The notes under the pieces: generated by a model | Told to the model about the DNA's origin: nothing | Seen by the model: only the letters and a program-made list of their open reading frames with translations | Databases searched by the model: none | Program-made: the position numbers and the translations under genes | In this document: piece by piece, positions 6,710 through 31,959 of the stretch | Layout of the letters: every line of letters begins with the position of its first letter | How positions within the stretch are numbered: position 1 is the first letter of the stretch | Assembly (NCBI GenBank): GCA_937927825.1 | Contig: CALFWV010000117.1 | Span: 1-32,083, forward strand | Direction of reading: 5' to 3' | Length of the DNA stretch: 32,083 nucleotides | Origin: an uncultured Caulobacterales bacterium | GTDB lineage: Bacteria > Pseudomonadota > Alphaproteobacteria > Caulobacterales > Maricaulaceae

Positions 6710-6716
6710 AAACTGG

Positions 6717-6749
6717 AAAGCCCTCGACAGTGTCGGGGGCTTTTTTTTT
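6717..6749 (+). terminator. Rho-independent terminator after the giant surface protein gene
   Basis: Eight bases after the stop codon, arms AGCCCTCGA and TCGGGGGCT can pair (one G-U wobble) around a short CAGTG loop, and are followed by nine T residues at 6741-6749. This is a textbook intrinsic terminator and separates the surface-protein gene from the phosphate operon. Confidence 0.9.
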
Positions 6750-6772
6750 GGGCGCCTTATGATTGGAAGTAA

Positions 6773-6825
6773 CCGTTATAAAACTGTCATAAAACTAATA
6801 TCTATTTGTCACTTTTCTTTGTCAT
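6773..6825 (+). promoter_or_regulatory. Pho-box array (PhoB binding sites) before the porin-pst-phoU operon
   Basis: Seven-base units spaced exactly 11 bp apart lie at 6773 (CCGTTAT), 6784 (CTGTCAT), 6795 (CTAATAT) and 6806 (TTGTCAC), separated by four-base spacers that are mostly A or T. The unit at 6784 is a perfect match to the enterobacterial PhoB half-site and the 6773-6790 pair matches it at 12 of 14 positions; another TTGTCAT sits at 6819, off the 11-bp register. PhoB dimers bind such direct repeats in place of a -35 element. The position, about 70-120 bp before a porin and pstSCAB-phoU, fits phosphate-starvation control of the whole operon. The -10 element could not be fixed. Confidence 0.75.
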
Positions 6826-6894
6826 TGGCCTGCAAACGGGCTCGACTGTGGAATCGCTATGGCCAGCCCTCATCGTCAAATAAAGAGGTGAGTG

Positions 6895-8025: not shown

Positions 8026-8047
8026 GCAAAATTCTAAGGAAGAAAAA

Positions 8048-11362: not shown

Positions 11363-12165
11363 TGGACACGACAATGAACACAGACGCCCTAAGCGCTGAG
11401 ACTGGCGCAAAGCCTATTATGACGGCCCGCAACGTTGATGTTTTCTATGGAAAAAAACAAGCCATTGATAATGTCAGCCTCGATATTCCGGAAAACCAAA
11501 TCACGGCGTTGATTGGCCCATCAGGGTGTGGGAAGTCTACATTCCTACGCTGTTTCAACCGCATGAATGACACGATCCAGATTTGTCGCGTCAAAGGTGA
11601 TATCAAATTTGCTGGACAAGATATTTATGACCCCAAGGTCGATGTTGTGGCGCTTCGGTCCCGCATCGGGATGGTATTCCAGAAGGCGAATCCATTCCCA
11701 AAGTCAATTTTTGAAAATGTTGCTTATGGTCCCAAAATTCATAGCTTGGCGGAGTCTAAAGACCATTTGGAAGATATTGTCATCACCTCCCTGAAGCGGG
11801 CGGGTTTATATGATGAGGTTTCTGATCGTTTGGACGAGCCGGGGACAAGCCTGTCGGGCGGTCAGCAACAGCGTCTGTGTATTGCGCGTGCTATTGCCGT
11901 TGATCCGCAAATCATCTTGATGGACGAACCGTGTTCAGCCCTGGATCCGATTGCGACAGCCATCATTGAAGAGCTGATGGACTCCATGAAAGAGAAATAT
12001 ACGATTGTCATCGTTACTCATTCTATGCAGCAGGCCGCCCGTGTGTCTCAACAGACCGCTTTCTTTCATCTGGGAGAATTGGTTGAGAGCGGTGATACAC
12101 AAGCAATTTTCACAAATCCCGAAAAAGAGCGGACCCAGAACTATATTTCCGGTCGGATTGGCTAG
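11362..12165 (+). CDS. pstB: Phosphate ABC transporter ATPase PstB
   Basis: The cytoplasmic ATPase that powers phosphate import, 267 residues. Visible motifs in order are Walker A 'GPSGCGKST', the PstB-type 'RCFNRMND', the Q-loop '[20 protein letters not shown]', the signature '[16 protein letters not shown]', Walker B '[13 protein letters not shown]' and the switch His in 'IVTHSMQQA'. ATG 11362 reuses the last base of the pstA stop (TAATG); an ATG four codons later (11374) is an alternative. It is followed two bases later by phoU. In the Pst system it also takes part in phosphate signalling together with PhoU. Confidence 0.96.
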
Positions 12166-12167
12166 TT

Positions 12168-12884
12168 ATGAGCGAAGAACACATTGTTTCCTCTTTCGAT
12201 GAAGACATGTCCCGTTTGCGAGACTTGTTTCTGGAGATGGGCCGCAGCGTATCAGCTCAGCTGCAGGCTGCGACGCGGGCGCTTCGTAAAGAGGATCGAA
12301 GTTTGGCCAAGCAAGTAATCGCTGGAGATAAACAGCTCAATAAACTTGAAGCGGACCTGAATGATCTTTCGATCAAAATTTTGGCGCTTCGTCAGCCTTT
12401 TGCAGGTGACTTGCGTAAAGTCGTGGCAACGCTGAAAGGGGCCGGGCATTTTGAACGCATGGGTGATCTCGCGCGAAATATAGCGCAACGGACGAATACG
12501 ATTACAAAAGCTGAGGCTGAAACCGGGTCCATCGACACCTTGATCCGCATGAGCGAAACTGTTCAAGTCATGACGAATTCTATTTTAACGGCCTATGAGC
12601 GGTCCGACATCGAGATAGCCGAAGAGGTGAGGGCGCAAGATGAAACCGTAGATCGGCTCCACAACTCACTTTTTCGAGAAATGTTGACCTATATGATGGA
12701 GGACCCCCGCAATATTTCAGGCTGCATGCACGTTATGTTCATGGCGAAGAATATTGAGCGGATGGGTGACAATGTCGCCGATATTGCGAAAGAACTCATC
12801 TATATGGTGAGCGGCGAATGGCCCGAAGGCGGCCGTGTCAAGAAAGATAAAACCAGCCGGATGATTGCTGACCTCGACGCTTAG
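12168..12884 (+). CDS. phoU: Phosphate signalling regulator PhoU
   Basis: A cytoplasmic, all-helical protein of 238 residues that links the Pst transporter to the PhoR/PhoB two-component system and prevents phosphate over-uptake. The N-terminal 'FDEDMSRLRDLFLEMG' opening, the two repeated three-helix halves and the metal-binding type segments 'GHFERMGDLARNIAQR' (first half) and 'NIERMGDNVADIAKEL' (second half) are diagnostic. It starts two bases after the pstB stop and is the last gene of the operon. phoB and phoR are not in this window. Its stop codon overlaps the stop of the convergent epimerase gene by four bases, with no terminator hairpin evident between them. Confidence 0.96.
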   Translation: MSEEHIVSSFDEDMSRLRDLFLEMGRSVSAQLQAATRALRKEDRSLAKQVIAGDKQLNKLEADLNDLSIKILALRQPFAGDLRKVVATLKGAGHFERMGDLARNIAQRTNTITKAEAETGSIDTLIRMSETVQVMTNSILTAYERSDIEIAEEVRAQDETVDRLHNSLFREMLTYMMEDPRNISGCMHVMFMAKNIERMGDNVADIAKELIYMVSGEWPEGGRVKKDKTSRMIADLDA

Positions 12885-13852
12885 GTGTTTTGCCTTTCGA
12901 GCCACTCACGATACCAGCCGACAAATTCTGATATACCCGTTTGAAGTTCGGTTTTTGGCGCAAATCCAAATTCTCGTTTCGCAGCGGATATGTCCGCAAA
13001 GGTACTTCGAACATCCCCGGGTTGCTGGGGCAAAATTGTGGCTTCGGCTTTTTGACCGCAAGCCGTTTCGACAGCCTCGACTAATTCATGCAATGTGTTT
13101 GGTGCAGAATTGCCGAGATTATAGATGATGTGTCTAGGCGGGGTCTTGGCCAATAAGGACGGCAGCACACCCACAATGTCATCGACATAGGTAAAATCTC
13201 GTTTCATCAAATCCGGCGCAAATAACGTTATGGGCTCACCCGCTAATATTTTCTCGGTAAAAATCCAATAGGCCATATCCGGCCGCCCCCAGGGTCCATA
13301 TACTGTGAAAAACCGCAAACCCGTCTGACGAATATCGTAGAGCCGAGCGTAGCTCTCGGACAGCATTTCCCCGCTTAATTTGGTCGCAGCGTAAAGGGAG
13401 GCGGGTTCGCGGACACGGTCGGTTTCCTTAAATCCAACCTCCGCTTCCCGTTCGCCGTAGACAGACGAGCTACTGGCATAGGCGACATGCTCAACTGTCT
13501 TACTGTGGCGGGCATATTCCAAAACATTCAAATGCCCCACTACATTGGATTGGATATAGCTATGCGGGTTTTCGAGACTGTAACGCACCCCGGCTTGTGC
13601 GGCGAGGTGCAGGATATGCGTAATGGGAGTCCGGCTCAGCGCCGTATCAATTGCCCCTTTTTCGGAAATGTCGAGAGCGATGAATGTAAAGTTTGGAAAA
13701 GGAGTCAGCTGTTCAAGTCTCGCGAGCTTTAAATCCGTAGAATAATAATCATTCAGATTATCGACACCGACAACGGTGTGCCCTTCGGCCAAAAGATGTT
13801 TGGCGGCATGGAAGCCAATGAAGCCCGCGGCACCTGTCAATAATATATTCAT
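12881..13852 (-). CDS. UDP-glucuronate 4-epimerase (extended SDR)
   Basis: Probably interconverts UDP-glucuronate and UDP-galacturonate for surface polysaccharide synthesis. The 323-residue protein has the NAD-binding 'LLTGAAGFIGFHAAKHLL', the 'YASSSSVYGE' segment with the catalytic Ser/Thr, the Y-x-x-x-K pair in 'SLYAATKLSGE', and the block 'RFFTVYGPWGRPDMA', which is characteristic of UDP-glucuronate 4-epimerases (CapI-like) within the SDR superfamily. The start at 13852 was chosen because the Rossmann strand normally begins two or three residues from the N-terminus; the frame opens 12 codons earlier (13888), so that start cannot be excluded. It lies convergent to phoU and divergent from glmM. 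Confidence 0.88.
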   Translation of the reverse strand: MNILLTGAAGFIGFHAAKHLLAEGHTVVGVDNLNDYYSTDLKLARLEQLTPFPNFTFIALDISEKGAIDTALSRTPITHILHLAAQAGVRYSLENPHSYIQSNVVGHLNVLEYARHSKTVEHVAYASSSSVYGEREAEVGFKETDRVREPASLYAATKLSGEMLSESYARLYDIRQTGLRFFTVYGPWGRPDMAYWIFTEKILAGEPITLFAPDLMKRDFTYVDDIVGVLPSLLAKTPPRHIIYNLGNSAPNTLHELVEAVETACGQKAEATILPQQPGDVRSTFADISAAKREFGFAPKTELQTGISEFVGWYREWLERQNT

Positions 13853-13999
13853 GCGCGCGCGATACCCTGTTGAACCTAACATATCCAATTCAAATCATGT
13901 CATCTATCATGTGCTTGCCAGAGATTTTCTCTACACACATTGTGCGCTGCAAGCTATGGCGGAAGACTGAACTCAGGCAGCGGTTAAAAGGCATCACTC

Positions 14000-15343
14000 A
14001 TGGCGAAATTTTTTGGAACGGATGGCGTCCGCGGATTGGCAAATACGGGTAAAATGACACCGGCCAGTATGTTGCATTTGGGTCAAGTCGTGGGTCAGTA
14101 TTTTGCATCGCAATCCGGCGGCCGGCCTTCTGCTGTCATCGGGAAAGACACCCGTTTGTCCGGCGATATGATTGAAGCTGCCCTCATTGCGGGCCTGACC
14201 TCCGTTGGTATTGATGTGAAGCGGGCAGGTGTTTTGCCGACATCAGGTGTGTCGTTAATGACCAAAGGTCTTCGTGCAGATTTAGGCGTAATGATTACGG
14301 CCTCACACAATAAATATCCCGATAATGGCGTGAAATTCTTTGGCCCAGATGGGTGTAAGCTGTCAGACGAGGCGGAAGCGGAGATAGAGGCGTTATTATT
14401 GGGTGATTCAGATGCGGCCGTGCCATCGGTTGATTTAGGGCGCGTGAGTATCCCCAAGGGTCTACAGGCCCGATATGTTGAGCTTTGCAAAGCGACTCTG
14501 CCCGCGAGCCAGAGACTCGACGGAATGAAGATTGTGATTGATGCGGCGCACGGGGCGGCTTTTGCCACTGCGGCTGAAACCTTTTGGGAGTTGGGCGCCG
14601 AAGATGTAATCTCAATTGGGGCGTCGCCGACGGGTGACAATATCAATGCCGGATGCGGTTCGACGGCGACTGACCTGCTCTCCAAGACTGTACTGGCCGA
14701 AGGCGCAGATGTCGGCGTTGCCTTGGACGGCGATGCAGATCGTTTGATTATGTGCGATGAAACAGGGAAAATTATCGACGGGGATCAACTTTTAGGATTG
14801 ATTGCGACCAGTTGGAAAGCGCAAGGTCGTTTGCGCGGAAATGGCATTGTGGCAACAGTCATGTCTAATTTGGGATTAGAGCGCCATCTTGAAGCCAATG
14901 ATATGCACCTCATCCGAACGCAAGTTGGAGACCGAAATGTCGCGTCGCGGATGCGGGCAGATGGTTATAATGTCGGCGGGGAACAATCCGGTCATTTATT
15001 GATGACTGAATATAGTCCGACGGGTGACGGGACAATGGCGGCAATACAAATTTTGGCCGAGATTAAGCGCCAAAACCGCGCCGCGAGCGATGTCTTGAAT
15101 GTCTTTGAACCAGTGCCGCAGTTGCTCAAAAATGTGCGCTACTCAGGCGACAACCCGATGACGCATCCCAAGCTTCTTGCTGCGATAGAAAAGGCTCAAT
15201 CCGATTTGGCCGGGCAAGGGCGCGTGCTCATCCGGGCCTCAGGGACCGAACCTCTTATTCGCGTCATGGCAGAAGGAAATGACCTGGTGAAAGTAGAGGC
15301 GATTGTCGATGGTTTTATAGCGCTTATTGAAACGCTGGTCTGA
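14000..15343 (+). CDS. glmM: Phosphoglucosamine mutase GlmM
   Basis: Converts glucosamine-6-phosphate to glucosamine-1-phosphate on the way to UDP-N-acetylglucosamine, hence to peptidoglycan and lipopolysaccharide. The 447 residues match the family length. It has the GlmM opening 'FGTDGVRGLAN', the phosphoserine loop 'TASHNKYPDNG' (phosphorylated Ser102), the magnesium loop 'DGDADR', the sugar-binding 'GGEQSGHL' and the phosphate-binding 'RASGTEPLIRVM'. ATG 14000 is preceded by AAAAGG at a suitable distance. The gene is separate from its neighbours: divergent from the epimerase with 147 bp between the two starts, and convergent with the AGE-epimerase gene. Confidence 0.97.
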   Translation: MAKFFGTDGVRGLANTGKMTPASMLHLGQVVGQYFASQSGGRPSAVIGKDTRLSGDMIEAALIAGLTSVGIDVKRAGVLPTSGVSLMTKGLRADLGVMITASHNKYPDNGVKFFGPDGCKLSDEAEAEIEALLLGDSDAAVPSVDLGRVSIPKGLQARYVELCKATLPASQRLDGMKIVIDAAHGAAFATAAETFWELGAEDVISIGASPTGDNINAGCGSTATDLLSKTVLAEGADVGVALDGDADRLIMCDETGKIIDGDQLLGLIATSWKAQGRLRGNGIVATVMSNLGLERHLEANDMHLIRTQVGDRNVASRMRADGYNVGGEQSGHLLMTEYSPTGDGTMAAIQILAEIKRQNRAASDVLNVFEPVPQLLKNVRYSGDNPMTHPKLLAAIEKAQSDLAGQGRVLIRASGTEPLIRVMAEGNDLVKVEAIVDGFIALIETLV

Positions 15344-15389
15344 GTTTGAAATCCACGTCACAAGTTATTCTGTGATATGTGCGGACACT

Positions 15390-16490
15390 CTATTGTAGGA
15401 GGGCGGCCACGCGTTCGCTTTCTGCGGCCATACATAAAATATGATAAAAGGTACTGACCGGAATGGTCTTGGCGATATTCACGTCGCAGGCATTAATCTG
15501 GTCATTCCACATGCCCTCTTGTGTGAGATAGGTCGGAAAAAGCGCATCAATCGTCGCCGCAGCCATATCCCCTGCGCCCTGAGTTCCGGCCTCTGCCATC
15601 GCTAAGTGGGCTTTTATGACTTCGGTTTGAACCCATAATCGTTTGGTTTCTCGTCGAATTTGGCCGGCTTTATCTTCTTCATCGTTCAAGAACCAGCCGC
15701 GTCCGCGTAGCACTGTATTATATAGGGCCGATTGGTAATGAGAGACATGTTGGCCTGTTGCTTTGTTATATTGTCCTAACAGCCATATCCATTCTACCGC
15801 GTGACCGGGTTCGGCGGTCTGGCCTGTTGCGCCGTTGGCGAGTGTCCAGTCCGATTCAAAAAACTCGCTAATTGTACCGTCGTCAAAGAAGTAGGATTCG
15901 AATAATCCGAAGATCGTCTCAGCATACTGGAGATGTTTTTTGTCCTTTGTCACGCCGTAAAGAAACAGGCTTGCTTCAAAAAGATGCATATGCGGGTTTT
16001 GGCGGCGCGCGGCTGTATCATCAACTTGGTCTGTTTCCCGCCAACCGCCCTTTGGGTGTGAGAGAGACGCATCAATCCAATTCAGCAGAGTTTCTGCCTC
16101 ATCCAAATATTTCCGGTCTCGCGTTAAAGCATAGAGACTGCTCGCAGCCAGGATATAAAATGCGTGATCATAAAGATCCCGCATTGCATTGGTGACGTCG
16201 CCCTCAGTATTCACGCGGTGGACATAGCCTATCTCCGTCATTTTTTTATATGTCGACACGGCAATGCCTTTTCCGTCAAACCAATCCAACGAACTCGCCT
16301 TGGCATAAACATAGACCTGCCTGGCCAAAACGCGCCATCGCCGCTCTGCTACATGGTCAGCGGTGCCGTTAAGGTGAAGATGCTCGGCCCAGCTCCCGTC
16401 TGGATTTTGCGCGCGCTCGGCCCACAGCGGCAGGGCTTGATTTACACACCAAGCGCGTAATCGCGCCGCGCTTTGCTCCAACGCGTGCAT
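15390..16490 (-). CDS. AGE-family sugar epimerase/isomerase (N-acylglucosamine 2-epimerase superfamily)
   Basis: A 366-residue (alpha/alpha)6-barrel enzyme of the AGE superfamily, whose members interconvert free or phosphorylated hexoses or hexosamines (for example mannose/fructose or GlcNAc/ManNAc). Conserved blocks seen are 'RQVYVYAKASSLDWF', 'GWRETDQVDDTAARRQNP' with 'HMHLFEASLF', 'EPGHAVEWIWLLGQY' with a catalytic-type His, and near the C-terminus 'STFYHILCMAAE' with the second expected His. I cannot tell the substrate from sequence. The start ATG 16490 follows the galU stop with one base between (TAATATG); a longer frame to 16562 lies inside galU and was rejected. It is last in a minus-strand set PMM/PGM-galU-AGE, so a mannose or glucose-phosphate role is plausible by context. 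Confidence 0.85.
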   Translation of the reverse strand: MHALEQSAARLRAWCVNQALPLWAERAQNPDGSWAEHLHLNGTADHVAERRWRVLARQVYVYAKASSLDWFDGKGIAVSTYKKMTEIGYVHRVNTEGDVTNAMRDLYDHAFYILAASSLYALTRDRKYLDEAETLLNWIDASLSHPKGGWRETDQVDDTAARRQNPHMHLFEASLFLYGVTKDKKHLQYAETIFGLFESYFFDDGTISEFFESDWTLANGATGQTAEPGHAVEWIWLLGQYNKATGQHVSHYQSALYNTVLRGRGWFLNDEEDKAGQIRRETKRLWVQTEVIKAHLAMAEAGTQGAGDMAAATIDALFPTYLTQEGMWNDQINACDVNIAKTIPVSTFYHILCMAAESERVAALLQ

Positions 16491-16491
16491 A

Positions 16492-17388
16492 TTATTTAAG
16501 CTTTGCGGATTTGTTGATAAGGTTTTGCGCGTCCTGACCAATATCCGGATGTGCGCGCGCAAAAGCTATAACGGCCTCAAAATATCCCAACTTTGATCCA
16601 CAATCGTAGTCTTGTCCGTCATAGATGAAGGCGTGAAAATCCTGTGTTTGCATCAGGCGAGCCATCGCGTCTGTGAGTTGGATTTCCCCGCCTGCACCGG
16701 CCGCTTGGTCTTTTAAAAGGCCCATGAGCTCGGGTTGTAGAATATAACGACCGGTGATTTTTAAATTTGAGGGCGCATCTTCAAGGGCTGGTTTCTCGAC
16801 CATACCGTCCATTTCTATCAGAGACTTATTACGTGCAGTCTTTGGGTCTTTGGGTCTGATAACACCATAATTTGACACGCGATCATCCGGCACCGGGTCT
16901 ACGGCAATAATATTGCCACCGACCTCATAATAGGCGTTCATCATTTGTGCGAGACAAGATTTGACATCTGTCTGTATCAGAACATCCGGTAAGAGAACGG
17001 CGAAGGGGTCATCTCCAATAATATCGCGCGCACACCAGACCGCATGCCCTAAGCCTTTGGCTTGTTGTTGGCGGACGAAGCTCATTGTGCCTTCGAGCGG
17101 TTGTTTCGCTTTCAATTCGCTCAATAGTTCTATTTTACCTTTGTTTTGCAGAGCGTCTTCCAGTTCATAAGCACTGTCAAAATAGTCCTCTATCGCAATT
17201 TTTCCGCGGGCTGTGACGAAGACAAAATGCTCAATGCCGGCTTCAACCGCCTCATCGACCACATATTGCAGGGCAGGACGGTCAACAATCGTCAACATTT
17301 CCTTTGGCACGGTTTTGGTCGCAGGTAGGACGCGTGTTCCAAATCCGGCAACGGGGAGGACGGCTTTTTTGACGGGTTTCATTTTCAT
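16492..17388 (-). CDS. galU: UTP-glucose-1-phosphate uridylyltransferase GalU
   Basis: Makes UDP-glucose from UTP and glucose-1-phosphate, the precursor for UDP-glucuronate and many surface glycans. The 298-residue protein has the nucleotide-binding opening 'VLPVAGFGTRVLPATKTVPK', the 'DRPALQYVVDEAVEAGI' segment, 'GLGHAVWCARD', the 'VLLPDVLI' metal-site region, 'MVEKP' and 'GRYIL', all typical of bacterial GalU. A GAGGATC stretch lies about 6 bases before ATG 17388, supporting this start over the ATG at 17382. It sits between the PMM/PGM gene (50 bp upstream) and the AGE epimerase (one base downstream), which together would feed glucose-1-phosphate into UDP-glucose. Confidence 0.96.
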   Translation of the reverse strand: MKMKPVKKAVLPVAGFGTRVLPATKTVPKEMLTIVDRPALQYVVDEAVEAGIEHFVFVTARGKIAIEDYFDSAYELEDALQNKGKIELLSELKAKQPLEGTMSFVRQQQAKGLGHAVWCARDIIGDDPFAVLLPDVLIQTDVKSCLAQMMNAYYEVGGNIIAVDPVPDDRVSNYGVIRPKDPKTARNKSLIEMDGMVEKPALEDAPSNLKITGRYILQPELMGLLKDQAAGAGGEIQLTDAMARLMQTQDFHAFIYDGQDYDCGSKLGYFEAVIAFARAHPDIGQDAQNLINKSAKLK

Positions 17389-17438
17389 TTTCCGATCCTC
17401 AGGTCAGGCTGGTTTCGCACTTTTTCGGTGCTTCCTCG

Positions 17439-23298: not shown

Positions 23299-25041
23299 TT
23301 AACTTATTGTAGTCGTTTTATATCCGAAAGCCGCAAAGTCATTTGCATATAATTTTTGGACTAATTTTTTACAGTCATCATCATAATATGCGTTTAGCTC
23401 TTCCATGGCTTTCGTTTTGTTCCGGGGTCTTGGAATATCAAATTCGAACGCGTCTGGTGAGATCTTTTTGATAATGTGATTTAGATCTGCGGCGAAATTC
23501 TCATAGCGCCCGATGAAATCATATTTGACTAAATCAATCATGGTTTGATCGACTTGTGGGCGCCAATGAATATCCATATCTTTGCTGTCTTGCGTGCTGA
23601 TAAGCTCCAGAAATTCCCTAAAACTGATATGCTTTGTTAGGTCCGCGTCTTCTGGTTTTACACCATCACGCATGGCGATCAGGTGTTTTTTCGGGCCAAT
23701 TCCAACCTCAACTTTACTTTTATAACAAGACAGTGCCCGGGAGAATGGGTTTCTAACAAAGGTGAAAATCGTCATATCCTTGCCGGATAAGCTTCTCGTT
23801 TTATCTTTCTTTGTCATTTCTCTGAACATCGGGAGTGGGGACTGGTTTCTGAAATGTACATGGGACCCGACTTTAACCCGGTCTTCGGGCACGCCTCCAT
23901 TACTTTCCCACTCAATTTTCTGCACCAAATGTTTGACGGTTGTACAGCCGGTTTTTGGAACCTCAACATAGGTAAAGCCGTGCTTCAGGGAAGTGTGCAA
24001 GCAGTAGTTTGAAATTTTGGAAGGCATGTAAGCTTCCAGCTTATCTTCCAGAGAACCTCTTAGTTTGGGTCGATTATTCAACTTTCCCAGAACTGACTTG
24101 CCGGGCGCCTTTGTCAACGAAGCCGCAGAAACTTTCCCAATTGGCGCGGGCGCTTTAGCAACTGGTTTCTTTACAGGTTTCTCAACCGACGGTTTGCCTT
24201 TAGTCGCGGGCTTTTTTTTTGCAGCCGCTTTTACGGTCTTGCGGCCTTTGTAGCCGACAGGCAGAGCGAACCCGTAGGATTGCATGTAGCTATCGCAAAG
24301 CTTGATAAACAGCTCTTGCTCTTCTGATGTCCATGCATCCCATGCAGCTTGTAATCGTCCTTCAAAATGTTTGACAGCGTTGATGTTCTCATTTGTGTTG
24401 TCAAAGGATGAGTTGAAAATATTGCTTTGGATATATTCGCCGGGTTTCGGGTCTCTTGCCATCCCAATTTCCGCAAAGGCGTCGCCCAGCACTTCAACAG
24501 GGTTGGTGACCATGTCGTGATGTTTTATAAAGGCGACATCTGCTCTGTTTTCCAAAAAATTATTGGCTTGGATACTTCCGGCCCACCGCCGGCAACAGTC
24601 TTCAAAGGTCAGATTACTAAATCCGTGAAAATTACGCGTGGAGTTAACGACTTCGATGCCATTACGCATAATGTACATCATCTTCATGCCGGGAAAAATA
24701 TTCTTGAAAGCGCTATAATTTTTGCGATTTGGGAAAGCTTTAGCAGGCCAGTATTTTGCGGCTGCGGTTTTTGCCTTCTCTTTATTTTTTGGTGCAATAT
24801 GGAGCTTGTAGAGCATCTCGCCAAAGGCGTCCGCCCTTTCTTCTGTACCCAATTTATAATTCTTGAGGCGATATTCGCGATCTGTCCCGTTTTCATAATT
24901 ATGAATGAAATTCACGAAATGGCCAATAAACGGGGCCTCGCCAAGAACCTCAGGTTCTATAACGTTTTTGTGGTACACCAGGCATTTCAGAAGAGCACTT
25001 GTGCCGGACCTGCCAATCCCTGTCACGAAAATAGGCTGCAT
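23299..25041 (-). CDS. Two-domain sulfotransferase (fusion of two PAPS-dependent domains)
   Basis: A 580-residue protein that carries two sulfotransferase domains and probably adds two sulfates to a glycan. Domain 1 (residues about 1-255) opens with the PAPS 5'-phosphosulfate loop 'VTGIGRSGTSALLKC' and has the 3'-phosphate site near 'YIMRNGIEVVNSTRNF'. Residues 264-330 are a Lys/Ala/Pro-rich linker. Domain 2 (about 345-580) resembles carbohydrate sulfotransferases of the Sulfotransfer_2 type, with 'VEVPKTGCTTVKHLV' (361 onward) and 'FVRNPFSRALSCYKSK' (428-443). ATG 25041 follows AAGGAAAA. No signal peptide is present, so sulfation would be cytoplasmic. It is convergent with GT2 and divergent from the CDP-glucose dehydratase gene. 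Confidence 0.85.
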   Translation of the reverse strand: MQPIFVTGIGRSGTSALLKCLVYHKNVIEPEVLGEAPFIGHFVNFIHNYENGTDREYRLKNYKLGTEERADAFGEMLYKLHIAPKNKEKAKTAAAKYWPAKAFPNRKNYSAFKNIFPGMKMMYIMRNGIEVVNSTRNFHGFSNLTFEDCCRRWAGSIQANNFLENRADVAFIKHHDMVTNPVEVLGDAFAEIGMARDPKPGEYIQSNIFNSSFDNTNENINAVKHFEGRLQAAWDAWTSEEQELFIKLCDSYMQSYGFALPVGYKGRKTVKAAAKKKPATKGKPSVEKPVKKPVAKAPAPIGKVSAASLTKAPGKSVLGKLNNRPKLRGSLEDKLEAYMPSKISNYCLHTSLKHGFTYVEVPKTGCTTVKHLVQKIEWESNGGVPEDRVKVGSHVHFRNQSPLPMFREMTKKDKTRSLSGKDMTIFTFVRNPFSRALSCYKSKVEVGIGPKKHLIAMRDGVKPEDADLTKHISFREFLELISTQDSKDMDIHWRPQVDQTMIDLVKYDFIGRYENFAADLNHIIKKISPDAFEFDIPRPRNKTKAMEELNAYYDDDCKKLVQKLYANDFAAFGYKTTTIS

Positions 25042-25193: not shown

Positions 25194-25259
25194 GCGGGGT
25201 AGCCTCTGTAGTTAAGCTCTGTCGGTATCTAGACGCGCAAGAAAGTGACGGTTTTTTCC

Positions 25260-26342
25260 ATGTTTGAAATCTATAAAAACAAGAATATCTTGGTGACTGG
25301 ACATAGTGGTTTCAAAGGCTCTTGGCTATGTGCGTGGCTCACGTCTTTAGGCGCAAACGTCAGAGGAATCAGCTTGGAGCCGTCGCAGACGCAACCCTCA
25401 TTATTTAAGCTTATCGGGGATGAAATTTGCCAGGATAGTTTTTTCGCCGATATTCGTGATTACCCACTGATGGAGAAGCTTATCGCGGATTTCAAACCGG
25501 ATTGCGTCATGCATTTGGCCGCGCAAGCGCTGGTGCGCGAGTCTTATGCAAACCCCCTTGATACGTTTTCAACAAATGTGATGGGAACGGCGAATATTTT
25601 GGAGGCCTGTCGTCATTTAGAAAAACCGCCTGCGATTGTCTGCGTCACCACCGATAAAGTTTATCACAATGCGGATTGGGCCTGGCCATATCGTGAAACC
25701 GACCCGCTGGGCGGTAAAGATCCGTATAGTTCTTCCAAAGCGGCCGCAGAACTTGTTGCAGGAGCTTATCGGGATACGATGTATAAGCTGAAGGGCGACC
25801 ACGGGCCGACACTCGCGACTGTTCGCGGCGGGAATGTGATTGGCGGCGGCGACTGGGCAGAGGATCGTATTATCCCGGATGCCGTTCGCGCGGCACAATC
25901 AGGAACGGCTTTGTCAATCCGGAATCCTGATGCGGTGCGCCCTTGGCAGCACGTGCTTGAGCTATGTCACGGATATATGGCTCTAGGTGAAAAATTATTG
26001 AGTGCTGATGCGACGAATTTTGTCGGAGCTTGGAATTTTGGGCCAAGCCCTATGGAAGTCGTGCCGGTTCATGAACTGGTTGCCACGTTGAAGAAAAGCT
26101 GGACAGATGTTGATCTGGAGGTCGAGTTTGGGGCGGACCCATCTATGCCCGAGGCGCGCTATCTGACATTGGATATATCGAAATCTATTCGTGACTTACG
26201 GTGGGGCCCGGCTCTTACAGTATGGGAAAGCATTCAGCTGACAGCGGATTGGTATAACGCCTATTTCGAAAGTCCTGAACAAGCTGTAAAAATGACCTAT
26301 GCGCAGATTGAAGCATATACTAAAAAGAGGACTGTGGCGTAG
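25260..26342 (+). CDS. rfbG: CDP-glucose 4,6-dehydratase
   Basis: Converts CDP-glucose to CDP-4-keto-6-deoxyglucose, the entry step to CDP-linked 6-deoxy and dideoxy sugars. The 360 residues fit the family length. The NAD-binding loop 'LVTGHSGFKGSWLCAWL' with its Gly-Phe-Lys-Gly-Ser is specific to this dehydratase subgroup of the SDRs, as are 'TTDKVYHNADWAWPY', the catalytic Tyr-Lys in 'DPYSSSKAAAELV' and 'RGGNVIGGGDWAEDRIIPD'. An in-frame GTG at 25245 is possible, but ATG 25260 gives the usual short lead-in to the Rossmann fold. The partner glucose-1-phosphate cytidylyltransferase is not in the window. A reductase/epimerase gene follows after 12 bp. Confidence 0.92.
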   Translation: MFEIYKNKNILVTGHSGFKGSWLCAWLTSLGANVRGISLEPSQTQPSLFKLIGDEICQDSFFADIRDYPLMEKLIADFKPDCVMHLAAQALVRESYANPLDTFSTNVMGTANILEACRHLEKPPAIVCVTTDKVYHNADWAWPYRETDPLGGKDPYSSSKAAAELVAGAYRDTMYKLKGDHGPTLATVRGGNVIGGGDWAEDRIIPDAVRAAQSGTALSIRNPDAVRPWQHVLELCHGYMALGEKLLSADATNFVGAWNFGPSPMEVVPVHELVATLKKSWTDVDLEVEFGADPSMPEARYLTLDISKSIRDLRWGPALTVWESIQLTADWYNAYFESPEQAVKMTYAQIEAYTKKRTVA

Positions 26343-26354
26343 GGAGCATCGGCA

Positions 26355-27281
26355 ATGCCTACACTCTTTATGACGGGGGCTTCCGGTTTGGTTGGACGGC
26401 ATTTTTTAGCGAAATATGCCGATAGGTTTGATGAAATAATCCTGCCCTTGCGGAAGGATCCGATTGAAAACTATTCCAAAAACATCATTGTCAAAAAAGT
26501 TCACGGCCAGCCGTCTGAAATAGCGGACCTCCTCACTGAATTTCCCTGTGATTACGTTCTCAATGGGGCTGCCTATGGCGTCTCCCCCGGCGCCCGCAAT
26601 CCCCAAGATATGGTCGCCGTCAACACCGCGCTACCCATCGCTCTTGCGAAGTCGGCTCAAACTGCAGGCGCGAAAAAACTTGTTCAATTAGGCTCGATGT
26701 CTGAATATTTACCGTCGGACACATATCAGCCGACGCTTGAGTCCGACCCGCTTGTTCAAAGCTCGGAAGGGTACGCCGGAAGTAAAGCTGAAGCGTCTCG
26801 GCGGTTAGAAGCGCTGGTAAATTCCGGAAACTTACAAATTTTATGTTTGAGGTTGTTCGGCATATTTGGACCCGGTGAAGGCCCGCATCGTCTGCTCGTA
26901 TCGTTATATGACACCTTATCCAACGGGCGCGTTGCGCCAATGTCAGCCGGCACTCAAGTTAGAGATTTCATTTACGTCCATGATGTCATTGATGCGATTT
27001 ATCTTGCCCTGACACAGCCAACCGAATTAAAATTCAAAGCGCTAAATGTCGGCAGCGGCCGCGGGATTTCTGTTGGGGATTTTGCCAAATTATTTTGCGA
27101 GATTGCGGGCTATAGCGAAGACAAACTCGACTTAGGCGCTTTGCCTATGCGAGATACGGATGTGGCATATATGGTTGCAGAGATTGGAGCCTCAAAGCGC
27201 GCCTTAGGTTGGACGCCAAAATGGGATGTAGAAACTGCCTTGGGAGACTATTGTGACTATCTGTCTAAGCGCTGTGACTAA
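26355..27281 (+). CDS. NAD(P)-dependent epimerase/reductase (SDR), probably acting on a CDP-deoxysugar
   Basis: A 308-residue extended short-chain dehydrogenase. It has the dinucleotide loop 'FMTGASGLVGRHFLAKY', 'LGSMSEYLPS' with the catalytic Ser region, the Tyr-Lys pair in 'EGYAGSKAEASRRLE', 'LRLFGIFGPGEGPHRLL' and 'VRDFIYVHDVIDAI'. Immediate coupling to the CDP-glucose 4,6-dehydratase (12 bp gap) suggests it reduces or epimerises the CDP-4-keto-6-deoxyhexose, as CDP-abequose/paratose synthases do, but the sequence does not fix the product. ATG 26355 has GGGAG about 8 bases upstream. No 3-dehydratase (RfbH-like) or aminotransferase is seen nearby, which argues for a simple 6-deoxyhexose over a 3,6-dideoxyhexose within the visible genes. 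Confidence 0.8.
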   Translation: MPTLFMTGASGLVGRHFLAKYADRFDEIILPLRKDPIENYSKNIIVKKVHGQPSEIADLLTEFPCDYVLNGAAYGVSPGARNPQDMVAVNTALPIALAKSAQTAGAKKLVQLGSMSEYLPSDTYQPTLESDPLVQSSEGYAGSKAEASRRLEALVNSGNLQILCLRLFGIFGPGEGPHRLLVSLYDTLSNGRVAPMSAGTQVRDFIYVHDVIDAIYLALTQPTELKFKALNVGSGRGISVGDFAKLFCEIAGYSEDKLDLGALPMRDTDVAYMVAEIGASKRALGWTPKWDVETALGDYCDYLSKRCD

Positions 27282-27446: not shown

Positions 27447-28280
27447 ATGTTGTTTTTTGGCGCCAGTGCAGGGCGAAGCGGAACGATGTTATTGGCCAAT
27501 CTGCTAAATTCGGAGCCGTCCGTCACATGTGTTCATGAAGGTAAGTTTAGACTGGGTGAAGAATCCGGTGAACAAATCCTTCCGTTTTTGACATTGGAAA
27601 ACCGACGCGGATATGAATATCCGGAAACAAAATCTGAAATTATCGCCAGCAAACGCCCCGTTGATGTCCTGACATCGCTGCATGAAACACACGGGTTTTT
27701 GGGTGACATTGCCTATAATAACAGCGTCTTTGTGGAAGAGTTATCCACGCAGTTTCCTGACTCCAAATTTCTGATATCCATTCGCGATGGTCGTGATTTT
27801 GTTCGGTCGGCCACAGTCTTGAAAGGCGAAGATTTGACACCCGTCGGCTGGGGACCAAGAGAGAAAGAGCTAACACCGCTTGAACGCTATATTTCTTTGG
27901 GAAGACTCCAACCTCGGGAAGGCGACCCACTTAAAGCAGAGTGGAATGATTTGGATTGTTTTGAGCAGAATTGTTGGCTCTGGAATGAAACGAATAAAGT
28001 TATTTTTGACGCGTTGGAAAAGATACCGAGCACTCAATATCATGTTATTCGCCTTGAGGATTTTAAATCAGACGGTCTGCAAACCTATAAGAAAATAAGA
28101 GAATTTTTGGGCGTGCCCGGCGAGACCTCAGCCGCCACTGAAAAACTACTACTTTCGCCTCAAATTAATGTTAAAAGCACAAAAGACTTACCACATCATT
28201 CTAAATGGACCGATCAAATGAACGCGGTCTTTTGGAAGCAATGTTCGCCTATGATGGAGAAATTAAACTATGTCGGATAA
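27447..28280 (+). CDS. PAPS-dependent sulfotransferase, single domain
   Basis: A 277-residue cytoplasmic sulfotransferase. The 5'-phosphosulfate loop is 'GASAGRSGTMLLANLL' from residue 5, and the 3'-phosphate-binding segment is 'FLISIRDGRDFVRSATVL'; the helical C-terminal half with 'WNETNKVIFDAL' and 'HVIRLEDF' fits the Sulfotransfer_1/3 superfamily. The acceptor is unknown; by context it is a polysaccharide or its lipid-linked unit. GGAAG precedes ATG 27447 at good spacing. Its 3' end overlaps the acyl carrier protein gene by 11 bp, so the two are translationally coupled. It is distinct from both domains of the larger sulfotransferase encoded at 23299-25041. Confidence 0.85.
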   Translation: MLFFGASAGRSGTMLLANLLNSEPSVTCVHEGKFRLGEESGEQILPFLTLENRRGYEYPETKSEIIASKRPVDVLTSLHETHGFLGDIAYNNSVFVEELSTQFPDSKFLISIRDGRDFVRSATVLKGEDLTPVGWGPREKELTPLERYISLGRLQPREGDPLKAEWNDLDCFEQNCWLWNETNKVIFDALEKIPSTQYHVIRLEDFKSDGLQTYKKIREFLGVPGETSAATEKLLLSPQINVKSTKDLPHHSKWTDQMNAVFWKQCSPMMEKLNYVG

Positions 28281-28518
28281 CAACACATTTGAACGTCTTC
28301 AATCGGTTTTTTCGTCAGTTATCGGGGCAGGGAATGCCGCCACAATCACGCCTACGTCTACCATGGATGAGGTCGAGGGGTGGGATTCCATGAATTTCAT
28401 TAATTTGGTTATTGCCGTTGAAACCGAATATAAAATCAGAATTGATGGCCTTGATGCTGCGTCAATGGTTACCATCCCAAGCATTCTTGAGTACCTCGAC
28501 CGGCAGCTCGCGAAATGA
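28270..28518 (+). CDS. Dedicated acyl/aminoacyl carrier protein
   Basis: An 82-residue acidic carrier protein. The phosphopantetheine attachment motif is 'EGWDSMNFINLV' with Ser40; a tryptophan and Met around it (G-W-D-S-M) differ from the D-S-L of the fatty-acid ACP, as is common for specialised carrier proteins including DltC-like and secondary-metabolism ones. Four-helix ACP layout and length are normal. It overlaps the sulfotransferase gene by 11 bp and the amino acid:carrier-protein ligase gene by 4 bp (ATGA), so it is almost certainly the partner of that ligase, carrying the activated amino acid as a thioester. Confidence 0.92.
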   Translation: MSDNNTFERLQSVFSSVIGAGNAATITPTSTMDEVEGWDSMNFINLVIAVETEYKIRIDGLDAASMVTIPSILEYLDRQLAK

Positions 28519-29657
28519 CCCAAACAATCGTCCTTGATATTTCACCGGATATGAATTTCGGTGAAGCCGCTCAAAAGAACTTTTTGGAGGCTTTGCCTTA
28601 CGTGGTTCAGGGTGTCGGGACGATAAATGTAAAGGGGGATTCCGTCAGCCTAACTGTAGAGACAGCCGCTGAGTTGGAAGCCCGCAAAGATGAAATTATG
28701 AGTGTTTTGAGGCGCTCCTTGGAGACGGTTTCACGTGCAACCGAACAAACCCTCGATGAAAACGACACTGACTATACACTGCATCCAAATGTAACCGAGG
28801 CTCTATTGGAGCGGGGGGATATTTCGCAAACCGGGAATGGAAAATTTGTCTATAAAGGCCAAGTCGCAAAAGTGTTTCGCGGTTTGGACGATTTATTCCG
28901 CGCCTGGGCCGGAGAGCAATCTGCGTCTGAAGAGTTTTTCCCGATTTCGGTGAAAACGGAAACGTTAAAACGGGCAGGTTATTTCAAGACATTTGCTCAA
29001 CATGCTTTTTTTGTTTCGCCGTTAGAATTATCCATGCCCGCGTTAGAGTCAGCGCAAACAGGTGACGTCCGCCCGCATTTACAATCTCCGGATTGGGTCC
29101 TATCGCCAACCGTCTGTCATCATTGTTTCGAATCCTTGAGTGATGCGGCCCACAAGAGCCATCAAACGATTACGGCGCTAAACCAATGCAGTCGATATGA
29201 GGTTCACGATACCGGCGGCTTAAAACGTCTGCGCCATTACTGGATGCGGGAAATCATTTTTCTGCGTTCAACGCCCGAAGAAACACAATCTGCACTTGAT
29301 GACGTATTGAAGCTCACCACGGATTTACTCCGGAGCTGGGGTATATCTTTCAAGGTAAAATCCGCATCAGATCCATTTTTTTTGGATTCGGGTACAGGTA
29401 AGCGCATGTTCCAGACCGCATTATTGATGAAACGCGAGTTAGTGTTACCAGTCGAAGGTAAATCTATCGCCTGTGGATCGTTCAATAACCATATGAAGAC
29501 CTTAGTCGAGGCTTTCGACATCACGGCAAATGACGGCGAAATTGCCTCCGGATGTGTGGGTTGGGGTTATGATCGTCTGATTTTAGCACTCTTTTCCCAG
29601 CTTGGTCCCGATTGTGAAAATTGGCCGGAACAAGTTCGCAAAGACCTTGGTTTATAA
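28515..29657 (+). CDS. Amino acid:[carrier protein] ligase (class II aaRS / SerRS-like)
   Basis: Activates an amino acid with ATP and transfers it to the phosphopantetheine of a carrier protein instead of tRNA. The 380-residue protein matches the aa:CP ligase family in its conserved blocks: 'LSPTVCHHCFESL', a motif-2 region 'CSRYEVHDTGGLKRLRHYW' then 'MREIIFL', 'ASDPFF' with 'GTGKRM', 'IACGSFNNHMKTLVEAFDI' and motif 3 'GCVGWGYDRLILALF'. Candidate zinc ligands are Cys201, Glu246 and Cys320; Arg227, Glu229 and Arg354 are the class II ATP-binding residues. No tRNA-binding coiled coil is present. The first ~90 residues are a separate small domain I do not recognise. Known relatives use glycine or alanine; specificity here is open. 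It overlaps the ACP gene by 4 bp. Confidence 0.88.
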   Translation: MTQTIVLDISPDMNFGEAAQKNFLEALPYVVQGVGTINVKGDSVSLTVETAAELEARKDEIMSVLRRSLETVSRATEQTLDENDTDYTLHPNVTEALLERGDISQTGNGKFVYKGQVAKVFRGLDDLFRAWAGEQSASEEFFPISVKTETLKRAGYFKTFAQHAFFVSPLELSMPALESAQTGDVRPHLQSPDWVLSPTVCHHCFESLSDAAHKSHQTITALNQCSRYEVHDTGGLKRLRHYWMREIIFLRSTPEETQSALDDVLKLTTDLLRSWGISFKVKSASDPFFLDSGTGKRMFQTALLMKRELVLPVEGKSIACGSFNNHMKTLVEAFDITANDGEIASGCVGWGYDRLILALFSQLGPDCENWPEQVRKDLGL

Positions 29658-29674
29658 TTGTAAGAGAACCCAGG

Positions 29675-30811
29675 GTGACGCGTTTCAACATTAAACCTGC
29701 GAGTTTTTTCTTTGTCGCGATTTTGTGCCTAAGTGCACTCATGTTCTGGCACAGCTATCAACCGTCTGCACGCTATTCGACAATCATCGGAAATGAAACG
29801 AGCCGGGCTAAATTCGATTGTATCTATAATTCTCAAACGCAAACCGAAGATCCTGCAGACATTTTGATTTTCGGAAGTTCGCGTGCGGGCTCTTATTTTG
29901 ATGATCGTTTCATCAGCCGTTGGGTCAGTGAGTTTTCCGGAGAGCCCACATATGTTCAGAACTTGAATGTGGCGGGCGGCGACATCAGCCTTAGCTATAT
30001 TTTCTTAAAAGAATATTTGGAGAAAAACAATCCGGACATTGTATACGTCGAAGTCCTCCGAATTAAACCGCAAGTCTCTTTAATCCCATACGTCAATCGG
30101 GCCTTCTCATCCACCGCGGATTGGGACACTACAAACGACTTGTTACGAGACTTTGAAGACAATCGAAGTTTGTTCTTCCGCGCCGCAGACATGTTTCGTG
30201 TAATGATTGATAAAACAGACAAGTATCTCTCAAAATTATTAGTCCGGGAATATTCGATTACCGTTAAAAATCCTGAAGCTTGTATACGGAATGAGATGAT
30301 AAAGACGGTCAAAAATATTGACGTGGACGCTTCAAAAAAGAGATTCTCAGCCCTCTATAAGAGAGAGGTCGAAAATTTAGTCCAAAACGCGAAATCTGCG
30401 AATGCAATTCGAAGAGAAACGAATCTTCCGCGCCGAGAGAGGGCTTTAAAAAGGCATAGAGAGAAGATGGGTAAAGCCTGGGAAACGGCTGAGCCCAAAG
30501 GCTGGGATTATGACACCGACATGGCCAAGCGACAGCTTTACTATTTTGAGAAATTGGAAGAGTTGACAGCCGAGAAAGGTGTCGAACTTGTATATTTCCG
30601 GCCTTACGGATTATTTGATGCCGAATATACAGCTAATCTGATTGAAAAATATGAAGGCGTATTCGGGGCAGATATCATTTACCCCCCTTATGACATGGCA
30701 AAACTTGCCTATCCCTATTACGTCGATCCAAATCATGCCGGTAAACAATCCAGGCGAGCGTTTGCACTCTGGTTAACAGAAGATATCATGACCCGGACGG
30801 GTAAGTTCTAG
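29675..30811 (+). CDS. SGNH-hydrolase-like, DltD/AlgJ-type membrane-anchored protein
   Basis: A 378-residue protein with one N-terminal signal anchor (about residues 8-25) and a periplasmic domain. It has the SGNH block I 'ILIFGSSRAGSYFDD' (Ser68/Ser69), a block like II-III 'LNVAGGDISLSY', and near the end 'YVDPNHAGKQSRRAFALWL' with Asp351 and His354 in the D-x-x-H arrangement. This architecture is that of DltD and the alginate acetylation proteins AlgJ/AlgX, which work with MBOAT proteins to move acyl groups onto periplasmic polymers. The start is taken as GTG 29675 (17 bp after the ligase stop), since an upstream start at 29621 would overlap the ligase and put extra residues before the anchor. 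The stop shares a base with the MBOAT start (TAGTG). Confidence 0.72.
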   Translation: MTRFNIKPASFFFVAILCLSALMFWHSYQPSARYSTIIGNETSRAKFDCIYNSQTQTEDPADILIFGSSRAGSYFDDRFISRWVSEFSGEPTYVQNLNVAGGDISLSYIFLKEYLEKNNPDIVYVEVLRIKPQVSLIPYVNRAFSSTADWDTTNDLLRDFEDNRSLFFRAADMFRVMIDKTDKYLSKLLVREYSITVKNPEACIRNEMIKTVKNIDVDASKKRFSALYKREVENLVQNAKSANAIRRETNLPRRERALKRHREKMGKAWETAEPKGWDYDTDMAKRQLYYFEKLEELTAEKGVELVYFRPYGLFDAEYTANLIEKYEGVFGADIIYPPYDMAKLAYPYYVDPNHAGKQSRRAFALWLTEDIMTRTGKF

Positions 30812-31959
30812 TGTTGGCAGCCCATACAGCTCTGTTTTTTGTCGTTCTCACGGCGGCAATTTTTCATCTCATTCCTGCGAAGCATTGGAATTTAAGACTG
30901 TCCGTTGTCATTCTGACAAGTGTCTTTTTAATCTATGCGATTTATCCCCTAGCTGCCGTCGCGGGCGTACTTTTCGCTATTTACGCATGGGGAATTTACA
31001 AGCTTTCGAAATCTAACCCACTCATTCGAAAATACGCCCCTTTGACGTTGTTCATTCTCTTGGGGTTTTTCAGTTATTTCGACTTCAAAGTTGACCGAAA
31101 CTTTTACGCGACAACAATTATCAATTTCGGAATGTCTTTTTATACGTTCCGTCTCTATGGCGCACTCCGCATGGCGCCAAGGCTAAAGACTGAAACCACC
31201 TTGTGTGAATTTCTGGCTCTTACATTATTTTTTCCGATATTTGCGGCCGGGCCAATCGCTTATCAGGATGCCTTTCGCGCCGCCTTTGATAAGCCTTTTC
31301 TCTATTCCGATTGGGTGATGGGGTTTTTCCGAATTTGCGCGGGCGTCTTTTTCGTGCATTTTGTCTCAGCACAATTAACGGAACTTCTTTATGAGTTTTC
31401 AGTCGGACGGACTGAAAATTTTAGATGGCATAAAATGGAAGTCTGGGAAGTTTACGTCGTGATGATGTTGAAATTCTTGAACCTATATGCCGATTTTACG
31501 GGATATACGGAAATCGCAATCGGACTCGGCATATTTTTTGGGTTCAAAATTCCCGAAAACTTCAGATTCCCGCTCTTCACACGGAACATTCAAGACTTCT
31601 GGAAACGTTGGCACTTGTCCTTGTCCAGCTTCATTGTAACTTATCTCTATCTTCCTCTGGCCGTACAATTCCGTAAACCTAGATTAGCCTTGTTTATGTC
31701 CTTCACCTTGGTAGGGTTATGGCATCAGATATCTTGGCAATATCTGGTTTGGGGCGTGGGGCATGGAGCAGCTCTCGTATTCTACCAAGAGTTTTCTAAA
31801 CTGAAATTTCACAGCTCGATTCCCGCTGCTGTGAAAACAGCGATTGTGCCGTTTGCGACAATTTTAACGCTCAGTTATGTGGCATTCTTATCCACATTCG
31901 CAAATGAAGCAACGCTTTCGAAGTCCCTGTCTTTCCTTAAATCGCTGATTGGATTGTAG
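30811..31959 (+). CDS. MBOAT-family membrane O-acyltransferase (DltB/AlgI-like)
   Basis: A 382-residue polytopic inner-membrane protein, close in length to DltB and shorter than typical AlgI. MBOAT blocks are clear: 'FFPIFAAGPIAYQDAF', 'NLYADFTGYTEIAIGLG', 'FGFKIPENFRFPLFTRNI', 'FWKRWHLSLSSFI' with His268, and 'GLWHQISWQYLVWGVGHG' with the catalytic-type His305. The family passes an acyl group from a cytoplasmic donor to an acceptor outside the membrane; DltB takes D-alanine from the carrier DltC. With a carrier protein and an amino acid ligase two genes upstream, an aminoacyl donor is likely here (inference), although a plain acetyltransferase cannot be excluded. The start is GTG 30811. Confidence 0.88.
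   Translation: MLAAHTALFFVVLTAAIFHLIPAKHWNLRLSVVILTSVFLIYAIYPLAAVAGVLFAIYAWGIYKLSKSNPLIRKYAPLTLFILLGFFSYFDFKVDRNFYATTIINFGMSFYTFRLYGALRMAPRLKTETTLCEFLALTLFFPIFAAGPIAYQDAFRAAFDKPFLYSDWVMGFFRICAGVFFVHFVSAQLTELLYEFSVGRTENFRWHKMEVWEVYVVMMLKFLNLYADFTGYTEIAIGLGIFFGFKIPENFRFPLFTRNIQDFWKRWHLSLSSFIVTYLYLPLAVQFRKPRLALFMSFTLVGLWHQISWQYLVWGVGHGAALVFYQEFSKLKFHSSIPAAVKTAIVPFATILTLSYVAFLSTFANEATLSKSLSFLKSLIGL

Follow-up and report, generated by a model that had tools for sequence, protein, structure and literature searches.

A candidate Dlt-like aminoacylation cassette with a seryl-tRNA synthetase-like ligase in the place of DltA in an uncultured Caulobacterales bacterium

The AlmEFG system of Vibrio cholerae, which glycylates lipid A, brings a carrier-bound amino acid onto a Gram-negative envelope molecule by means of an ANL adenylation enzyme and an acyltransferase of another family than the one considered here. 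In the Dlt pathway (dltXABCD), which D-alanylates teichoic acids, DltX carries D-alanine on the tyrosine of its C-terminal FXYXXF motif from DltB to DltD, and PatA-type membrane-bound O-acyltransferases (MBOATs) bear this motif on their own tail; PatA/PatB and AlgI-type pairs are described as drawing on an acyl-CoA donor without a carrier protein, and MBOAT-SGNH pathways other than Dlt are stated to lack a similar carrier protein (PMC12148441, in excerpt). Here we analysed a stretch of 32,083 nucleotides from an uncultured Caulobacterales bacterium (contig CALFWV010000117.1; hereafter the window), near the end of which lies a cassette that widens this last statement, as the excerpt gives it. 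The cassette probably encodes a relay of the Dlt kind for aminoacylation of the envelope of a Gram-negative bacterium, in which a seryl-tRNA synthetase (SerRS)-like ligase would stand where Dlt has the DltA-type ANL adenylation enzyme. It holds genes of the expected families or probable folds, in a defined order and with the expected catalytic residues in place, and a syntenic cassette occurs in another genome.

This syntenic cassette, locus L213 of the alphaproteobacterial genome G154, suggests a relay more strongly than any other evidence, as it keeps the six-gene order with a DltA-like enzyme in the slot of the ligase. A class-wide search with the sulfotransferase as query was positive, at E ≤ 1e-10, in five of 385 genomes, the window's own among them. 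In L213 the genes for sulfotransferase, carrier, AMP ligase, SGNH protein, MBOAT and microprotein follow each other in the order and orientation of the window, each overlapping the next, and their products align with those of the window at 29% over 270 aa (sulfotransferase), 27% over 377 aa (MBOAT), 27% over 55 aa (carrier) and 33% over 75 aa (SGNH protein). The L213 ligase scores 280 bits with the amino-acid adenylation model TIGR01733 and 242 and 232 bits with DltA models, all under cut-off, and reads FDFS where DltA has FDLS, keeping the FDxS core motif. Gene order is otherwise equal in the two cassettes, whose activating enzymes belong to different superfamilies. In the window's own genome (92% complete) the best match to a DltA profile reaches 115 bits against a cut-off of 560. 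Together with a DltX-like microprotein and with the linkage of related ligases to MBOAT genes (24 of 62 loci), L213 supports what a preliminary description of this DNA had proposed, namely that a SerRS-like ligase takes the place of DltA in a Dlt-like relay.

In the relay that we propose, the ligase would use ATP to adenylate an amino acid and attach it, in thioester linkage, to the phosphopantetheine of the carrier. On the inner side of the inner membrane, the MBOAT would then collect the amino acid from the carrier and pass it to the tyrosine of the microprotein. The SGNH protein would accept it on its serine and hand it on to a polysaccharide, periplasmic or at the surface, that the neighbouring genes would make and that is probably sulfated as well. 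To judge from the ligase family, glycine, alanine or serine are plausible cargoes; what we say of the cargo, of the accepting polymer and of a 'sulfated glycan' is inferred. The cassette offers a concrete, testable role for orphan tRNA-synthetase-like ligases and points to aminoacyl esters, and perhaps charge control, on Gram-negative surface polysaccharides.

How does this locus compare with the described systems? As in Dlt, there is a carrier with a phosphopantetheine serine, a tail-less MBOAT with both DltB histidines, a protein with a probable SGNH fold and a microprotein that has a single hydrophobic stretch and, near its C-terminus, the motif tyrosine. The system would work like Dlt, yet we do not file it as Dlt, because DltA is replaced, the MBOAT scores 128 bits against a DltB cut-off of 375, the SGNH protein is not recognisably DltD, and the motif reads PRYAGY, which is neither FXYXXF nor the FIYNEF of Dlt; a Gram-negative host and an attached sulfotransferase gene are further differences. 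With the amino acid:carrier-protein (aa:CP) ligases (Bradyrhizobium Bll0957; PDB 3mey, 4h2s) the window ligase shares a class II SerRS-like core and an adjoining carrier gene, whereas its additional N-terminal domain, its additional CxxC cysteine, its score below cut-off and an operon of the envelope-acylation type set it apart. With PatA/PatB and AlgI-type pairs the locus shares the combination of MBOAT and SGNH protein, and related loci of Hyphomicrobiales have a fused FXYXXF tail; unlike these pairs, it has a carrier and a ligase and bears the motif on a separate microprotein. In the open literature, which leaves subscription journals mostly outside, we found nothing joining MBOAT, aminoacyl-tRNA synthetase and carrier protein, and nothing joining acyl carrier protein, MBOAT, SGNH, polysaccharide and aminoacyl; the papers on MBOAT and 'carrier protein ligase' were all on Dlt by title or abstract.

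Table 1. Genes of the candidate aminoacylation cassette and of its surroundings in the window
Feature	Position	Strand	Support
Sulfotransferase (Sulfotransfer_3), first gene of likely operon	27447..28280	+	PF13469 E 2.1e-11
Acyl carrier protein, 82 aa; predicted phosphopantetheine site Ser40 in GWDSM (codon 28387-28389)	28270..28518	+	PF00550 E 3.6e-5
SerRS-like amino acid:carrier-protein ligase, 380 aa	28515..29657	+	PF00587 E 1.2e-9; PRK07080 E 1.2e-37
Membrane-anchored protein, probable SGNH fold, 378 aa, GTG start	29675..30811	+	GSS and DPNH in sequence; weak model
MBOAT, 382 aa	30811..31959	+	PF03062 E 5.3e-15
5' part of 53-aa DltX-like microprotein, reading off the contig end	31962..32083	+	C117/C172 exact overlap; microprotein scans
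Context: two-domain sulfotransferase, same polysaccharide-like locus	23299..25041	-	PF03567 E 2.5e-24; PF13469 E 4.1e-11
Context: two nucleotide-sugar epimerase/dehydratase-type genes, upstream	25245..27281	+	PF16363, PF01370

The carrier, SerRS-like ligase, SGNH-type and MBOAT genes in 28270-31959 have the order, spacing and motifs that the preliminary description gave them. Its four-gene cassette stands as far as these genes are concerned; it had overlooked the microprotein and the sulfotransferase gene, which is likely the first gene of the operon and overlaps the carrier gene by 11 bp. The carrier and ligase genes overlap by 4 bp, ligase and SGNH genes are separated by 17 bp, and SGNH and MBOAT genes overlap by 1 bp. 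Carrier and MBOAT both score above the Pfam cut-offs, and Ser40 of the carrier aligns with the serine of DltC, a residue that is invariant across nine aligned carriers, two of them DltC. Homologues of the window-type sulfotransferase adjoin a carrier gene in L039 and L213 and lie within the clusters of L050 and L068. In the context region, the protein encoded at 23299-25041 is a single polypeptide with two distinct sulfotransferase domains, Sulfotransfer_3 followed by Sulfotransfer_2.

The relay might be real and its cargo an aminoacyl group that has been modified, by N-acetylation or by sulfation through the linked sulfotransferase, so that no positive charge would be added. In line with this, the sulfotransferase gene overlaps the carrier gene in both the window and L213 and is also found with the ligase in L039, L050 and L068, and genes for GNAT-type acetyltransferases lie by the ligase in L038 (9237-9935), L045 (10534-11157) and L069 (10002-10526), identified by Pfam, with a look-alike in L094 (7630-8214) by resemblance only. 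Such enzymes could N-acylate the carrier-bound amino acid, and, as they adjoin some ligases, certain lineages may have a blocked amino group. No GNAT gene is found, however, among the genes adjoining the window ligase, and sulfotransferases are expected anyway in sulfated-polysaccharide loci, a second one being present here, so we regard a modified cargo as unlikely.

In the case of the ligase, the best NCBIfam match is the amino acid--[acyl-carrier-protein] ligase family PRK07080, whose score of 129.6 bits is below the curated cut-off of 357 and is still the top family match; the alignment with Bll0957 (PDB 3mey) has an E value of 3.4e-22. The predicted structure, with a predicted local distance difference test score (pLDDT) of 76, matches structures of aa:CP ligases and type-2 SerRS. 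Residues C201, E229 and C320 are in place in the alignment and sit at what we take to be the zinc-ligand positions of aa:CP ligases. C204 is the cysteine of a CxxC that occurs in the divergent group and is absent from 13 canonical aa:CP ligases. The N-terminal domain of about 85 aa, missing from the shorter canonical enzymes, is modelled with modest confidence as a small alpha/beta unit that aligns partly with type-2 SerRS chains; aa:CP ligases as a family are expected to have no tRNA-binding domain. In the ligase tree, from which 16 near-duplicate or truncated loci and short rows had been removed, the window ligase falls in a clade of seven rows (Shimodaira-Hasegawa-like approximate likelihood ratio test 99) that includes L050, L064, L068 and L070. 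A Polyangia ligase (L063 7762-9744), 45% identical over part of its length, is apparently fused behind a regulator-like N-terminal region; the DNA stops inside this gene.

A search of the PDB with the window MBOAT gave only DltB structures at E ≤ 0.001 (8jem, E 3.6e-19; 6bug, E 5.4e-19). In the alignment with the DltB chain 6bug_C, H268 falls on position 289 and H305, the universal histidine of MBOATs in this PF03062 member, on position 336; the protein ends FLKSLIGL, without a C-terminal FXYXXF tail. On the DltB model TIGR04091 it scores 127.9 bits against a cut-off of 375 and against 545 bits for a true DltB control. In a quick tree of 66 rows, from which near-duplicate and truncated rows (seven loci) had been removed, and in a careful tree of 31 rows (27 of the 66 plus four new), the tail-less window-type MBOAT is placed apart from PatA-like MBOATs and from a group that we presume to be AlgI-like. 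The unannotated gonococcal reference was treated as PatA on the strength of its tail, FIYANF, which is identical to that of NgPatA in the excerpt of PMC12148441. The careful tree unites the window and L213 MBOATs as sisters (99/96) and both with that of L038 (100/99). Holding window and L038 together without L213, a grouping chosen after the tree was seen, is disfavoured in the approximately unbiased (AU) test (p-AU 0.028), and a single clade of the DltBs and the window group is neither recovered nor rejected (p-AU 0.080).

Could the neighbourhood be a matter of chance, with an ordinary AlgI/PatA-type acetyltransferase gene next to an orphan ligase? MBOATs occur widely (at E ≤ 1e-10 in 184 of the order's 398 genomes) and the DltB profile also matches ordinary ones, the two others of this genome outscoring that of the window. 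Against this stand the recurrence of an MBOAT near the ligase, the synteny with L213 and the microprotein, so that chance is already disfavoured and seems very improbable. Two nearly identical other MBOAT genes of the window's genome (L058 and L059, on contigs C113 and C41), one of them cut at the contig end, point to either a recent duplication or an assembly artefact.

The open reading frame (ORF) that starts 2 bp past the MBOAT gene appears to occupy the place expected of a DltX-like acyl-shuttle protein. It leaves the window, which is the whole of contig C117. When the final 120 bases are compared with the genome, they match twice, once in the window and once on contig C172, with which C117 shares an exact overlap of 141 bp. 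Joined across this overlap, the ORF codes for a protein of 53 aa that has a single hydrophobic stretch and ends in PRYAGY. A comparable small protein (one hydrophobic stretch, C-terminal xxYxx[FY]) adjoins a tail-less MBOAT in 16 of 21 loci; L058 was left out of this count because its MBOAT runs into the contig end. No microprotein was found beside the tail-less MBOATs of L065, L066, L069, L140 and L161, of which the last two were covered over about 4 kb only. The C-termini are PVYGDF in L038, where the 36-aa protein lies between MBOAT and ligase, FIYEGF in L081 and WIYQGF in L127; in Dlt-like cassettes they are FRYQNF (L211 and L212), APYVGF (L213) and FRYLFF (L214), and at DltB loci FIYNEF in three Gram-positive cases, as in the named DltX controls, and FEYQQF or FEYQKF in five Gram-negative ones. 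In L039 a microprotein ending FRYMGF lies upstream of the sulfotransferase, and the contig stops before any MBOAT.

Scanning nine loci for strict FXYXXF gave a candidate microprotein only in L039 and L081, the other two matches being stretches of 20 and 11 residues. The pattern was loosened to [FWYPVIL]xYxx[FWY] after PRYAGY had been seen, so the scan with it was not blind. In 1.48 Mb it matched four different loci (the window join, L038, L039 = L062, and L081) and the three Gram-positive DltX controls; the remaining matches are tails of fused MBOATs, and a shuffled control gave four matches in 7.22 Mb. A later scan that left the first motif position free also picked up the fused L215 tail, and in L213 it called an over-long start. 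Beside these candidates, L038 has a second small ORF between carrier and MBOAT (12311-12466, minus strand; 51 aa), with one hydrophobic stretch and the ending LENTF, without the motif tyrosine. The DltB-like MBOATs of other Pseudomonadota in L138, L139, L141, L142 and L143 have a microprotein of 39-40 aa (FEYQQF or FEYQKF) alongside, and in L142 a DltA-like gene is also present.

The product of 29675-30811 probably has an SGNH fold, to judge from its model. It has a predicted N-terminal helix (7-27) as well as the GSS and DPNH motifs, and Pfam gave no family match for it. The AlphaFold model is weak (mean pLDDT 51), and Foldseek returned nothing at E ≤ 0.001. On realignment of the Foldseek candidates, the 50 matches listed are mostly SGNH/GDSL hydrolases (Z 9.0-11.6; PatB, 7tjb, 9.9), with designed scaffolds at rank 1 (Z 11.8) and in two further rows. 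In Foldseek's own list the DltD chains have E values of 0.09 (3bma) or worse, and DltD is not among the 50 matches listed in the realignment.

How widespread is the association of such ligases with MBOATs? A single scan of about 85,000 species genomes, with one peptide pattern that included CxxC, yielded 62 ligase loci. The pattern came from an alignment of seven ligases, five of them already known beside an MBOAT; five of the 62 loci repeat earlier-fetched ones (L062, L073, L075, L098 and L099), three of these being within the 24 with an MBOAT, and the conservation of CxxC in L062-L123 is by selection, because the pattern contained it. An MBOAT gene lies within 2.5 kb of the ligase and on the same strand in 24 of the 62 loci, and a carrier gene within 1 kb in 43. 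When the loci are sorted by record title, the MBOAT is present in 24 of 38 non-Bacillota loci; of the other 14, six (L062, L063, L072, L082, L090 and L119) could not be scored, their DNA ending near the ligase on one side. Around the canonical aa:CP ligases an MBOAT is nearby in 0 of 13 loci. The pairing is seen in Pseudomonadota and Planctomycetota and, on weaker evidence, in Verrucomicrobiota; the MBOAT-like genes of L065, L066 and L069 were called by a custom hidden Markov model, Pfam being blank in the two tested. It sits on several branches of the ligase tree, where at least seven changes of state are needed, and has therefore been gained or lost repeatedly.

Most Hyphomicrobiales-type loci have an upstream protein (without Pfam match in the three tested), followed by MBOAT, ligase and carrier. 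The MBOATs of these loci bear a fused F[ILV]YYxF at the end and fall among the AlgI-like ones. Since these fused-tail MBOATs adjoin carrier and ligase genes, they represent a case unforeseen by the rule in the excerpt of PMC12148441. It is possible, and we put it forward tentatively, that ligases derived from tRNA synthetases are a general second power source for the decoration of the envelope with amino acids. They would have entered MBOAT relays several times independently, in both kinds (with a DltX-like shuttle or a fused FXYXXF tail) and in Pseudomonadota, Planctomycetota and perhaps Verrucomicrobiota, and in the window's subtype a dedicated sulfotransferase would contribute, yielding a polymer with both sulfate and amino groups.

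Ligase relatives also occur with a carrier in glycan-type clusters, with no MBOAT in the fetched DNA, in L050, L064/L070 and L068. The L050 cluster (2972-17404) is of the nonulosonic-acid type, with two NeuB, PIG-L, formyltransferase-like, DUF4910 and sulfotransferase genes. Such clusters would fit a cytosolic role, in which ligase and carrier serve a step such as the N-aminoacylation of a nucleotide sugar or nonulosonic acid, and MBOAT and SGNH protein are a separate acetyl-CoA-dependent pair sharing the operon. We consider this quite unlikely for the window, where the tail-less MBOAT stands apart from PatA-like and AlgI-like MBOATs and carrier, ligase, SGNH and MBOAT genes are interleaved in order, and given that a DltA-like enzyme occupies the same slot in L213.

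Several observations weigh against a Dlt-like relay. Ligase and carrier without an MBOAT, an arrangement that the preliminary description had counted as contrary to its proposal, do occur in the fetched DNA: in eight of the 38 non-Bacillota loci (L064, L067, L068, L070, L075 = L050, L084, L109 and L123) and in all 24 Bacillota loci, none of which has an MBOAT. The nearest relatives of the window ligase, L050, L064, L068 and L070, also have no MBOAT in the fetched DNA. The ligase/carrier pair is therefore a reusable module that is not tied to an envelope relay. The match of the MBOAT to the DltB profile was rejected as evidence: at E ≤ 0.001 TIGR04091 has matches in 121 of the 398 genomes of the phylum that were searched, none above cut-off, and two other MBOATs of the window's genome reach 180 bits against 128 for that of the window, so that the match means nothing by itself because ordinary MBOATs match too. 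The L213 MBOAT forms a long branch, and gene order therefore weighs more than the tree. A profile relationship of the SGNH-like protein to DltD is unsupported (hhalign probability 1.1, with shallow alignments), and its model is weak. Both end positions of FXYXXF are changed in PRYAGY, and the 3' end of the microprotein gene (40 bases, stop included) lies on another contig, C172 (L126).

Further Dlt-like cassettes with AMP-binding enzymes are present in L211 and L212, of the same taxonomic order as the window (L212 by alignment), and in L214, of the same family. L211 (8068-13441) and L212 (7035-12351) contain genes for an SGNH-like protein, assigned by its place, a DltX-like microprotein, an MBOAT, an AMP-binding enzyme, a carrier and a sulfotransferase, with Pfam assignments for L211 only. 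The AMP-binding enzyme of L214 is without the FDxS aspartate and may load another acid. A Metabacillus plasmid (L136 1859-6205) combines genes for a carrier and an AMP-binding enzyme with one for an MBOAT whose fused tail reads FIYGGF, which places a fused-tail MBOAT by a carrier gene in a Gram-positive as well.

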